Positions 41,322 through 45,081 of a stretch of DNA of 64,000 nucleotides are shown here, piece after piece (positions within the stretch are counted from its first letter, which is position 1; every line of letters starts with the position of its first letter). The DNA lies in the NCBI RefSeq assembly GCF_010093065.1, contig NZ_CP048113.1, positions 4,402,001 through 4,466,000 on the forward strand, given 5' to 3'. Source of the DNA: Chitinophaga agri. Its GTDB lineage: Bacteria; Bacteroidota; Bacteroidia; Chitinophagales; Chitinophagaceae. The translations under genes and the position numbers were made by a program. The notes beneath the pieces are model-generated. The model did no database searches, was not told the DNA's origin, and worked only from the letters and a program-made list of their open reading frames with translations.

Positions 41322-41464
41322 AATGTTTAAAGATTTGAGATTGTATTAACTTGCATCCTTAATTCAATCTTCTCCGGCAAAGATAAGGAAACAGGCATGT
41401 GCTGACAGATATAAATCGGTTCCTGCCCCGGAAAAGCGAAACAGATAAGATAAATAATCGTAAG

Positions 41465-43297
41465 ATGAAGACTTTTTTCAGGTTGCTGAGTTTGTCGAAG
41501 CCCTATCACCACTATGTTCCGGAATATATTGTGTATGTTATTCTGTATACGGTCTTCGGGCTGCTGAACTTTACACTACTGATTCCATTGCTAAACGCAC
41601 TATTTGACATTGAAAAGCATGAGGTTGTCAGCCAGCTACCCGATTTTTCATTTACTGCAAAGTACTTCATAGATCTATTCTATTATAATATTAATGAGCT
41701 ACTTATAAAGTATAATGGTAATAAGTTTGCGGTACTGGTATATGTCTGTACCGTACTTTTCATCACTATCATACTAAAAAATCTTTTCGGATATCTCAGT
41801 CAACGTACGCTCACTCGTGTACGGGTTTCCATGGTGCGAAGGATGAGGGAAAAGGTCTTTTACCAATACAGTCATCAGTCTCTGGGCTTTTTCCACAATG
41901 AACGTAAAGGCGACCTGTTGTCTGTTGTCAGCAGTGATGTGGTAGAAGTCGAAAACTCTGTGATCACCTCTATGCAAACCATCCTGCGTGACCCCCTGGT
42001 GATCATTTCCACGTTCGTAGCACTTTTCAACATATCAAGAGAGCTTACGTTTTTCGCTATCCTGTTCTTCCCGATATCTGGTCTGTTGCTCAGCTCTGTA
42101 TCTAAAAAGTTGAAAAAGCAATCCACCGTAAGCCATGGACTACTCGGTAAAATATTGAATATCAGTGAAGAAACACTTTCGGGCATTCGTATTATCAAGG
42201 CATTTAATGCTGAAAGCTTCATTAACAGTAAATTTTCAGAAGACAACCAGGCATATGCAGACAATATCAAATCAATGCAAAACCGACGTGAGGCAGCCTC
42301 TCCCGTATCTGAGATCCTGGGAGTAATGGTGGTGATCGTCATCATGTTATATGGTGGTAATCTGATATTATCTGGCTCCAATGCACTGACAGCGTCCACC
42401 TTTATCGCCTACCTTGGATTCTTTTTCCAGATACTGGCACCGGCGAAATCTATGGGTACCGCTATTACCGCCCTACCTAAAGGACTGGCTGCTGGTGAAC
42501 GTCTGCTGCGTATCATGGATGCACCTAATCCGATCAGTGATAAAGAAAATGCAGCTGCATTGGCTGGCTTCGAAAAAAATATTGAATTCAGCAATGTCAC
42601 GTTCGCCTATAACGAGAAGCCTGTACTTAAAAACGTACAGCTCACTATCGACAAGGGCCGTATGGTCGCCCTGGTAGGTAAAAGCGGTGCTGGTAAATCT
42701 ACGATGGCCGACCTGATCCCCCGTTTCTATGACGTAACTGGCGGTGCTATCCTCGTAGATGGTAAAGATATCCGTGACGTCAAAATGCATGATCTGCGTG
42801 CGCAGATAGGCATGGTATCGCAGGAGGCTATACTTTTTAATGACACAGTATTCAATAATATCGCCTTTGGACAGCCCGATGCAAACAGGGAAGAAGTGAT
42901 CAAAGCCGCTAAGATCGCCAACGCACATGAATTTATTGCGCAACTGGAAAATGGCTATGACACACCTATCGGTGATCGTGGTATGAAACTGAGCGGAGGG
43001 CAGCGGCAGCGGCTGACCATAGCCCGTGCTATCTTCAAAAATCCACCTATCCTGATACTGGATGAAGCCACTTCCGCACTGGATACCGAGTCAGAAAAAC
43101 TGGTGCAGGATGCACTGGACAGACTGATGGAAAACCGTACAACCATCGTTATTGCACACCGTTTATCCACTATCCAGCATGCCAATGAGATCATTGTAAT
43201 GGACCAGGGCGAGATTAAGGAACGCGGTACACACGATGAGCTGATCACAAAAGACGGCATTTACCGGAAACTCGTGGAAATGCAGGAATTCAAATAA
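41465..43297 (+). CDS. ABC exporter, fused permease and ATPase (MsbA-like)
   Basis: A 610-residue half-transporter: six helices in residues about 20-330, then an ATPase domain with Walker A GKSGAGKST (about 396-404), signature LSGGQRQRLTIARAIF and Walker B ILILDEATSALD, plus the H-loop (IVIAHRLSTI). Probably a lipid or drug flippase; MsbA-like function is likely because no dedicated substrate genes flank it. The ATG at 41465 (MKTFFRLLSLSKPY) is preferred over one 22 codons upstream. Terminator at 43320. Confidence 0.9.
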   Translation: MKTFFRLLSLSKPYHHYVPEYIVYVILYTVFGLLNFTLLIPLLNALFDIEKHEVVSQLPDFSFTAKYFIDLFYYNINELLIKYNGNKFAVLVYVCTVLFITIILKNLFGYLSQRTLTRVRVSMVRRMREKVFYQYSHQSLGFFHNERKGDLLSVVSSDVVEVENSVITSMQTILRDPLVIISTFVALFNISRELTFFAILFFPISGLLLSSVSKKLKKQSTVSHGLLGKILNISEETLSGIRIIKAFNAESFINSKFSEDNQAYADNIKSMQNRREAASPVSEILGVMVVIVIMLYGGNLILSGSNALTASTFIAYLGFFFQILAPAKSMGTAITALPKGLAAGERLLRIMDAPNPISDKENAAALAGFEKNIEFSNVTFAYNEKPVLKNVQLTIDKGRMVALVGKSGAGKSTMADLIPRFYDVTGGAILVDGKDIRDVKMHDLRAQIGMVSQEAILFNDTVFNNIAFGQPDANREEVIKAAKIANAHEFIAQLENGYDTPIGDRGMKLSGGQRQRLTIARAIFKNPPILILDEATSALDTESEKLVQDALDRLMENRTTIVIAHRLSTIQHANEIIVMDQGEIKERGTHDELITKDGIYRKLVEMQEFK

Positions 43298-43548: not shown

Positions 43549-45081
43549 ATGATTTCCATTATCATTCCGGTTCTGAATGAAGGGGCTACATTACGTCAGG
43601 TAATCAAAACCATCAAAAAGACGACAAGAAAAATTGAGATCATTGTGGTTGATGATAATTCCAATGACAATTCAGTAGAGCAGGCTTTGAAGGAAAATGT
43701 GCGTGTCATCACCAGTAGTCAGCGGGGTAAAGGTATATCCATGAGAGAGGGAATGATGGCGGCTAAGAATGATATTGTCATGTATGTAGATGGCGACATC
43801 CTCACCTATCCGGAGAATATAGTGGAATTACTGACAGATCCTATTGTGGATGGAAAAGCTGATTTCGTTAAATCCTATTTCGAGCGACAGGCGGGCAGAG
43901 TAACACAGCTGGTTGCCAAACCGCTCCTCAGTATTCTATTCCCGGAACTGGCTACTTTCAATCAACCACTTAGCGGCATGGTCGCAGCCAGAAAATCATT
44001 ACTATCAAACGTACAGTTTGAAAATGACTACGGCGTGGATATCGGCCTGTTGATAGATCTGCATGTACAGGGCGCACGTATTACAGAAGTAAATATCGGC
44101 CGCGTCGAAAATGCCATGCAGACATGGGAGCAGCTGAGCAAGATGTCCAGAGAAGTATCACGTACAATTCTGCGTAAAGCAGAAAACATCCCGCAGGAGA
44201 ACCTGGAAACACTGGGTAATATCAATATCATCCGCGAGCAAATGGAATATTCCATTCTGGAATCTATTGACAAACTCCATAAAATGGTCATCTTCAACCT
44301 GGATGAGACAATTTTCCGGGAAGACTACCTGATGGCAGCCGCTACAGAATTTGGCTTTGAGAGCACCTTGAAACAGATACGTGGACATTTCACAGATCCT
44401 ATCACTGTCATTGAACACACTGCCACCCTTTTCCATGAAAGGAATCTCGCAGAACTACTGGAGGTAGCAGATGAGGTATCGCTGGTCCCTGATATTAAGG
44501 CTGTTGTACGTGAGCTAAAGAAGCGTGGATACACGGTTGGGCTTATTACAGATGGTTTCGAATGTGTAGCCCGCCATGTAAGGAATAAGCTGGGCATGGA
44601 CTTCGTTTTTGCGAACAGGCTACATCTCTTTAATAGCGTGGCTACAGGAGAAGTGACTATTCCGGACTACTTCCTTTGCACAGATAAAAATGCACCTTCA
44701 CAACCGCCGGTGTATTGTAAGAGCAATATATTAACCTATATTGCAGACAAATACCACGTTACACCACAAAATATTATATATGTTGGCAGTGGTGCTGATG
44801 GTAATGAGCTGTTGAAAGAAGCTGGAATCGGTGTCGCATTTGATGCAGTAAGTACAGAAGCAGAGAATATTGCAGATAAAATTATTCCCGGCCCATGGAT
44901 GGAACCGTTGTTGCAGATAGCCCAGGCCAGTCCTGAGAAGTTTAAGCTTCGCTTACCAGCGATCAGCAAGAAACAGGCAAGACGGATCGGCGTAGGCAGC
45001 CTTATCGGATTAGCGTCCGCAGGTTTGGTTTACCTGGCGGCCAGGCAACTTACGAAACGAAAAAAACAAGAGGTCTCATAA
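43549..45081 (+). CDS. GT81-like glycosyltransferase fused to a degenerate HAD (SerB-like) domain and a C-terminal membrane anchor
   Basis: A 510-residue three-part protein. Residues 1-220 form a GT-A fold (IIIPVLNEGATLRQVI, VVDDNSNDNS, metal-binding DGD at 81-83) whose segment RVTQLVAKPLLSILFPELAT resembles glucosyl-3-phosphoglycerate synthase (GT81). Residues about 245-460 form a SerB-like HAD fold, but motif I reads FNLDET (N250 replaces the nucleophile Asp) and motif IV reads GSGADG (S414 and G418 replace acidic residues). Residues about 480-500 are a membrane anchor near the C-terminus. The HAD part is probably inactive or repurposed. The donor, acceptor and product are inferred from family likeness only. 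Confidence 0.75.
   Translation: MISIIIPVLNEGATLRQVIKTIKKTTRKIEIIVVDDNSNDNSVEQALKENVRVITSSQRGKGISMREGMMAAKNDIVMYVDGDILTYPENIVELLTDPIVDGKADFVKSYFERQAGRVTQLVAKPLLSILFPELATFNQPLSGMVAARKSLLSNVQFENDYGVDIGLLIDLHVQGARITEVNIGRVENAMQTWEQLSKMSREVSRTILRKAENIPQENLETLGNINIIREQMEYSILESIDKLHKMVIFNLDETIFREDYLMAAATEFGFESTLKQIRGHFTDPITVIEHTATLFHERNLAELLEVADEVSLVPDIKAVVRELKKRGYTVGLITDGFECVARHVRNKLGMDFVFANRLHLFNSVATGEVTIPDYFLCTDKNAPSQPPVYCKSNILTYIADKYHVTPQNIIYVGSGADGNELLKEAGIGVAFDAVSTEAENIADKIIPGPWMEPLLQIAQASPEKFKLRLPAISKKQARRIGVGSLIGLASAGLVYLAARQLTKRKKQEVS

Follow-up and report, generated by a model that had tools for sequence, protein, structure and literature searches.

A glycosyltransferase–phosphatase fusion with a disabled phosphatase half and a likely membrane tail in Chitinophaga

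Results

Domain organization of the fusion protein

We analyzed a window of 64,000 nucleotides of Chitinophaga agri DNA (contig NZ_CP048113.1, positions 4,402,001 to 4,466,000), focusing on one gene at window positions 43549..45081 on the forward (+) strand, the strand to which the coordinates of the gene and its parts below refer. This open reading frame encodes a Chitinophaga-type protein of 510 amino acids plus a stop codon, and full-length homologues were found. Residues 1–215 (43549..44193) form a GT-A domain resembling the GT81 enzyme glucosyl-3-phosphoglycerate synthase (GpgS), and residues 245–457 (44281..44919) form a SerB-like (HAD-IB) HAD domain that is catalytically degraded; both domains were matched by sequence and by fold. 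A helical linker (residues 216–244; 44194..44280) connects them in the AlphaFold2 model, in which residues 234–243 have low confidence. Close to the C-terminus, a hydrophobic segment flanked by basic residues (approximately residues 480–498; 44986..45042) reaches a Kyte–Doolittle maximum of 1.86 over 17 residues, and the model places a helix at residues 482–509. Hydropathy and the predicted helix suggest that this segment is likely a single-span membrane tail anchor.

To place the protein among its relatives, 157 distinct family proteins were extracted from 191 loci, and a protein was termed intact when Asp occupied all four HAD columns 250, 252, 414, and 418. The relatives comprised 83 intact and 74 non-intact proteins, the latter consisting of 64 with the hydrophobic tail and 10 without it. 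The tail was found in none of the 83 intact proteins, and every tailed protein (64/64) had a damaged HAD site. The 17-residue hydropathy was at least 1.47 in all 64 tailed proteins, versus a highest value of 0.09 among the intact ones. The intact short fusion is mostly about 457 residues long, occurs chiefly on Bacteroidota contigs, and matches the window protein in its two domains and their order, with roughly 36–52% identity. Unlike the window protein, it has no hydrophobic tail, carries a Cys/His/Cys/Cys residue set, and often lies beside stress or ion-transport genes, as described below. Six intact short fusions (L040, L048, L049, L064, L071, and L083) lie on contigs labelled Ignavibacteriales, Schekmanbacteria, Peribacteraceae, Syntrophaceae, archaeon, and KSB1; all six are labelled as metagenome bins or uncultured, and transfer or mis-binning is a possible origin.

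Replaced catalytic acids in the phosphatase half

In the window protein, the nucleophilic Asp of motif I (FNLDET) is replaced by N250 (44296..44298), and the two Asp residues of motif IV are replaced by S414 and G418 (44788..44802). The Ser/Thr of motif II (T334; 44548..44550) and the Lys of motif III (K391; 44719..44721) are kept, as judged from the sequence and the alignment of relatives. The protein thus lacks one of the two complete active sites that a bifunctional synthase–phosphatase would require. These residues and the domain matches agree with a preliminary description of the gene, which had proposed a GT81-like N-terminal half, a SerB-like half deprived of its catalytic acids but retaining the Thr and Lys motifs, and a probable membrane tail. 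The window protein scored 88.5 bits against TIGR00338 (cut-off 144.15) and 43.1 bits against TIGR01488 (cut-off 45), below both thresholds; two intact short relatives exceeded the TIGR01488 cut-off (65.2 and 62.1 bits) and remained under that of TIGR00338 (119.3 and 109.8 bits). Some tailed proteins carry the source names “phosphoserine phosphatase” or “HAD-IB family phosphatase”, and their residues argue against such activity. In genome G000, the disabled HAD half is the top TIGR00338 match (89 bits, under the cut-off) and the next match reaches 24.3 bits; therefore, the phosphoserine phosphatase of serine synthesis in G000, if present, would be of another kind.

The acids were lost in several ways among the 64 tailed proteins. 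Position 250 is Asn in 51 and Glu in 6; another 6 keep D250 and have lost the second motif I Asp together with the Thr, with Asn at 414; and one keeps motif I (D250) but has Gly at 414. In the Foetidibacter-type group, the aligner placed a gap at column 252, where by eye the second Asp is Ser, Asn, or Gly, with one residue missing. T254 is present in 83/83 intact versus 25/64 tailed proteins, whereas Ser/Thr334 and Lys/Arg391 occur together in 63 of the 64 tailed proteins. The full C385/H387/C390/C420 set was found in 81/83 intact, 8/10 non-intact untailed, and 0/64 tailed proteins. This near-fixed set of the intact HAD halves (for example, L112 and L185) is possibly a metal or redox site, of a kind not known to be typical of SerB. 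The 10 untailed non-intact proteins include two truncated ones, one with E250 (L164), and seven with both motif I Asp residues. In these seven, the first motif IV Asp is the only one of the four acids missing (two also have T254I and one K391L), and by their residues some may be active. Together, these patterns are strong evidence that the tailed clade has lost its phosphatase residues.

Conservation of the transferase site

Pfam assigns the glycosyltransferase domain to Glycos_transf_2. Nevertheless, GpgS was its closest kin both by sequence and by the fold of the model, and we rejected an ordinary GT2 enzyme as closest kin, a grouping that the preliminary description had named as telling against its view. 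According to the available excerpt of PMC2581804, the donor-site network of Mycobacterium tuberculosis GpgS consists of Lys114, Asp134, and Glu232, the other wall of the sugar pocket consists of Leu209, Tyr229, and Met269, the metal ligand is the second Asp of Asp134-X-Asp136, and Val186 and Thr187 contact the carboxylate of 3-phosphoglycerate. Equivalent residues, counted by hand on a pairwise alignment with the chain numbering shifted by 4, are K61 (43729..43731), D81, and D164; L141, Y161, and M199; D83; and V118 and T119, respectively. All these GpgS residues are identical in the window protein except Glu232, which corresponds to D164. D81 and D83 belong to a DGD motif (residues 81–83; 43789..43797), the metal/nucleotide site, and V118 and T119 to a GRVT motif (residues 116–119; 43894..43905).

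The eight identical residues are the same in 64/64 tailed and 82 or 83 of the 83 intact proteins (K61 in 64/64 and 82/83). The pocket and contact residues are also unchanged in all 76 rows of the genus alignment, which represent 74 copies, two rows being repeats of the same copy. The alignments strongly indicate that the active-site residues of the transferase were kept in the tailed clade, and the transferase half of the window protein looks functional.

Distribution and phylogeny

At least one copy was found in 72 of 79 Chitinophaga genomes (E ≤ 1e-40), and seven genomes had no copy at this threshold. The tailed kind accounted for 72 of the 74 copies, of which 71 carry N250 and one (genome G155) carries D250 with G414. 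All but one of the 72 are full length; the exception, of 407 residues, comes from a genome of 65% completeness. Since 71 of the 72 tailed genus copies share it, N250 is a fixed trait, and we rejected a local mutation or sequencing error as its cause. By these sequences, the tailed, disabled form is a lineage trait. The preliminary description had held that homologues mostly keeping Asp would make the change a local one: outside the clade Asp is indeed widely kept (83 of the 157 relatives have all four acids), but within the genus it is not. Motif IV varies among the 71 N250 copies, with both Asp residues in 28, Asn-Asp in 22, Ser-Gly (the state of the window protein) in 14, Ser-Asp in 4, and other or missing residues in 3. 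This variation suggests that N250 arose first and that motif IV was lost later and unevenly.

The tailed copy of G155 (L182/L151) has FDLDHT at motif I and GGGIND at motif IV; here, the nucleophile is retained or regained inside the N250 clade. Two genomes with a tailed copy also have a short one, which is intact in G194 and has E250/G414 in G187. The latter (L164) is untailed, has FELDYAAA at motif I, and lies beside histidine kinase, MscS, and DUF389 genes; it is a separate loss of phosphatase residues within a stress context. Beyond the genus, matches were found in 44 of 147 genomes of the family sample (E ≤ 1e-40) and 18 of 198 genomes of the order sample (E ≤ 1e-60), and in genome G008 a tailed copy and an intact one occur together.

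In a tree of the glycosyltransferase columns (121 rows), the tailed proteins formed one set of 37 rows placed among intact forms, with a Shimodaira–Hasegawa-like approximate likelihood ratio test (SH-aLRT) support of 99. After three long rows were removed (118 rows), the 37 tailed rows lay on one side of one branch, with SH-aLRT 99, in the glycosyltransferase-only tree, as they did in a HAD-only tree without the motif columns (118 rows, SH-aLRT 99). Treated as a character that is either there or missing, the nucleophile Asp required three changes on the glycosyltransferase tree, and any of the four acids required seven. The trees were quick and unrooted, carried SH-aLRT support alone, and most inner branches were not starred.

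Selection on the two halves

The ratio of nonsynonymous to synonymous substitution rates (dN/dS) was estimated for each part of the tailed proteins. For N250 pairs with 88–99.5% identity (87 pairs), the median dN/dS was 0.021 in the glycosyltransferase half (86 usable pairs), 0.044 in the HAD half (82), and 0.101 in the tail (78); for pairs with 78–88% identity (167 pairs), it was 0.034 (107), 0.086 (91), and 0.143 (80), respectively. Intact short pairs with 80–99.5% identity (32 pairs) gave 0.038 for the glycosyltransferase (13) and 0.052 for the HAD half (15). Pairs with saturated dS were dropped, the remaining pairs overlap and are not independent, and dS is near saturation, so all these values are indications. 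The disabled HAD half appears constrained, and less so than the transferase, because its median dN/dS is low but above that of the glycosyltransferase half. We take these values as indications of purifying selection on the disabled HAD half. With its fold conserved, its catalytic residues lost, and its sequence kept under selection, this half can be classed, on sequence grounds, as a pseudophosphatase.

Gene neighbourhood

Neighbouring families were named by Pfam from one representative each. Clusters with genes for Usp (universal stress protein), DUF389, CitMHS, ClC, and MscS proteins and a two-component pair, often with gaps of a few bases, recur around intact genes; one more recurrent membrane-like family had no Pfam name. 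At least one stress or ion-transport family was present within three genes in 48/83 intact, 3/10 non-intact untailed, and 0/64 tailed loci, and such a gene was adjacent, on the same strand, and within 100 bases in 38/83, 2/10, and 0/64, respectively. When only loci with at least five visible neighbours were counted, the values were 32/54, 1/4, and 0/32. These families were picked after the clusters near intact genes had been seen, the flanks visible at many tailed loci are short, and genes were called crudely; therefore, the result is a contrast and not a test. The intact fusions of L041, L045, L051, L185, and L095 directly follow a DUF389 membrane protein gene, with ends touching or overlapping, and those of L041, L045, and L051 are followed by a CitMHS-type gene. 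These loci suggest DUF389 as a possible member of an operon for ion or osmotic stress.

In Chitinophaga, most tailed genes are preceded by an ABC exporter gene and followed by a DksA-like gene, and the exporter is the upstream same-strand neighbour in 43/64 tailed loci. In the window, the exporter gene occupies 41399–43297. Different Chitinophaga with the same flanking genes have or lack it; it is absent from L009, L166, and L180. Flavihumibacter-type tailed genes adjoin what, as recognized from its protein, is presumably a pyruvate dehydrogenase E2 gene, and no ABC gene was seen beside them. We thus rejected a general link between the fusion and the exporter.

Discussion

Our analysis points to a fused solute synthase–phosphatase that has been redeployed in Chitinophagaceae as a membrane-anchored transferase, with its HAD half serving as a structural or phosphorylated-ligand-binding module; we consider this explanation moderately probable. 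The ancestor would have been a fused two-step enzyme with an N-terminal GT81-type transferase and a C-terminal HAD phosphatase. The transferase would have moved a hexose from a nucleoside diphosphate sugar onto 3-phosphoglycerate, and the phosphatase would have removed the phosphate to yield a stress solute, namely glucosylglycerate or a closely related compound. Within one lineage of Chitinophagaceae, the enzyme would then have gained a C-terminal membrane anchor and lost its phosphatase chemistry through substitutions differing by sublineage, and its gene is no longer seen beside stress genes. The tailed transferase would remain active at the membrane and yield a product that stays phosphorylated there; the disabled HAD half, kept as a structural or phosphate-ligand-binding module, would position or regulate the transferase.

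Several points weigh against this explanation. The window protein scored 164.7 bits (170.4 bits in the genome search) against NF010496, the NCBIfam GpgS equivalog, and did not reach the cut-off of 262; two intact short relatives scored 187.8 and 165.1 bits, and the genome of the window protein contains six weaker matches, the best at 55.4 bits. The position of GpgS Glu232 is Asp in 82/83 intact and 64/64 tailed proteins, and that of the GpgS loop residue His258 is Asn188 in 81/83 intact and 64/64 tailed proteins, with His in two intact ones. Because of the missed cut-off and these two replacements, another acceptor or donor is possible; mannosylglycerate synthase also has Asp (Asp192) at the Glu232 position, according to the excerpt of PMC2581804. 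The HAD pocket has been remodelled beyond its acids, with K289 in 83/83 intact but 4/64 tailed proteins and E359 in 82/83 but 0/64; retained ligand binding is thus not assured. The ligand-binding or regulatory role that the preliminary description had suggested for this half is possible; by sequence, these losses weaken its simple version, in which the old substrate is still bound. HAD dN is about twice glycosyltransferase dN in the tailed group, a weaker constraint than on the transferase half, read from overlapping pairs with dS near saturation. Since the trees are unrooted, “loss” relies on the position of the tailed clade amid numerous intact forms, and the neighbourhood contrast involves families chosen post hoc. 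No MPGP-type partner phosphatase exceeded the TIGR01486 cut-off in any of the 79 genus genomes (weak matches with E ≤ 0.001 occurred in 50), a search that did not include the histidine-phosphatase-type GpgP. Finally, product formation, the stress-solute role, and the membrane location are put forward here as proposals.

What the HAD half does now is the main subject of the rival explanations. It may be purely structural, packing against the transferase dimer or presenting the transferase to the membrane without any ligand, and we regard this as quite possible, though short of an even chance; a scaffold would not need the near-fixed Ser/Thr334 and Lys/Arg391. These two residues instead favor a sensor of a phosphorylated ligand (3-phosphoglycerate, phosphoserine, or the product) that switches the transferase and couples its activity at the membrane to the state of glycolysis, which we hold only tentatively. 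Purifying selection on the HAD half and the retention of both motif IV Asp residues in 28 of the 71 N250 genus copies are consistent with such a sensor, as is the best PDB sequence match of the domain: the 1l7o/1l7p chain, with Asn at the nucleophile position, scored 61.2 bits versus 58.9 for the wild-type chain. The excerpt of PMC6321591 gives Asp11 as the nucleophile of phosphoserine phosphatase and reports that the D11N mutant was crystallized with phosphoserine; Asn at this position is therefore compatible with binding, which says nothing on binding by the window protein. Against a sensor stand the loss of K289, E359, and the Cys/His/Cys/Cys set from the tailed proteins and the variation of motif I and IV residues by sublineage, which looks more like freedom from the old ligand. 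On balance, we consider the structural and ligand-sensing roles about equally likely. A more specific version seems rather doubtful to us: a bacterial lineage would have turned a bifunctional solute-making enzyme into a membrane-tethered sensor-transferase, in which a HAD pseudophosphatase, with Asn fixed at the nucleophile position in Chitinophaga, would sense a phosphorylated metabolite and thereby control the GT81 transferase, and the phosphorylated product of the latter would have its own function.

The other rivals are less probable. The HAD half might keep some chemistry by way of an alternative nucleophile, deamidation of the Asn, or some other reaction, as the tailed G155 copy with D250, D252, and T254 and the 28 N250 copies with an intact motif IV pair could suggest; the window copy, however, has neither the nucleophile equivalent to Asp11 (excerpt of PMC6321591) nor either motif IV acid, and sister sublineages lost other residues, so we find this unlikely. 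Nor do we expect that the tailed transferase has acquired a new membrane acceptor, a phospho- or glycerolipid, and acts together with the ABC exporter encoded next to it. The hydrophobic tail and the exporter upstream in two-thirds of the tailed loci would fit that idea, but the ABC gene is missing from the loci noted above, and the tailed proteins keep the GRVT motif of the 3-phosphoglycerate contact. Least of all do we favor the HAD half as decaying sequence, with the transferase as the sole function of the fusion: its faster dN in the tailed group would agree with decay, but its median dN/dS values in the two identity bands and the full length of 71 of the 72 tailed genus copies make this very improbable.

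Compared with known systems, the window protein differs in both halves. The solved GpgS proteins of M. tuberculosis and M. hassiacum (GT81) are unfused, whereas the window protein has a phosphatase domain, Asn188 for His258, and Asp164 for Glu232. SerB/HAD-IB enzymes such as the Methanocaldococcus jannaschii phosphoserine phosphatase and the Helicobacter pylori protein 3m1y have the Asp nucleophile and motif IV Asp that are replaced here. Precedents for the fusion itself are GgpPS of Marinobacter and others, in which a sugar transferase and its phosphatase share one chain (excerpt of PMC10873239), and a mannosylglycerate synthase used in Corynebacterium glutamicum and called bifunctional (excerpt of PMC8490865). 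The solutes of these enzymes differ from the one proposed here, and in GgpPS the phosphatase is N-terminal; the excerpts on the two enzymes mention neither a disabled phosphatase nor a tail in the membrane. The intact fusion, given the analogy to such enzymes and its stress neighbourhood, fits a one-chain synthase–phosphatase for a glycerate-type solute. The preliminary description had noted no known account of the arrangement. The fusion is not the odd part, being widespread and, in more than half of the sampled relatives, complete in its four HAD acids; the tailed, disabled clade is. Among the matches listed from the openly licensed PubMed Central literature, available as excerpts, there was no description of a GT81–HAD fusion or its disabled form. 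Pseudophosphatases, GT81 enzymes, and synthase–phosphatase fusions are each known, and within that literature their combination is new.

The short fusion, with its HAD site complete, resembles a single-protein pathway to a compatible solute of the glycerate type in Bacteroidota. The tailed clade offers a natural series of two-step enzymes with one half disabled in several ways and the other left intact, and it thereby allows a direct test of the role of a bacterial HAD pseudophosphatase whose chemistry has been lost. Because the phosphatase half looks functional in many relatives, a two-step enzyme seems to have found a new use in one lineage.
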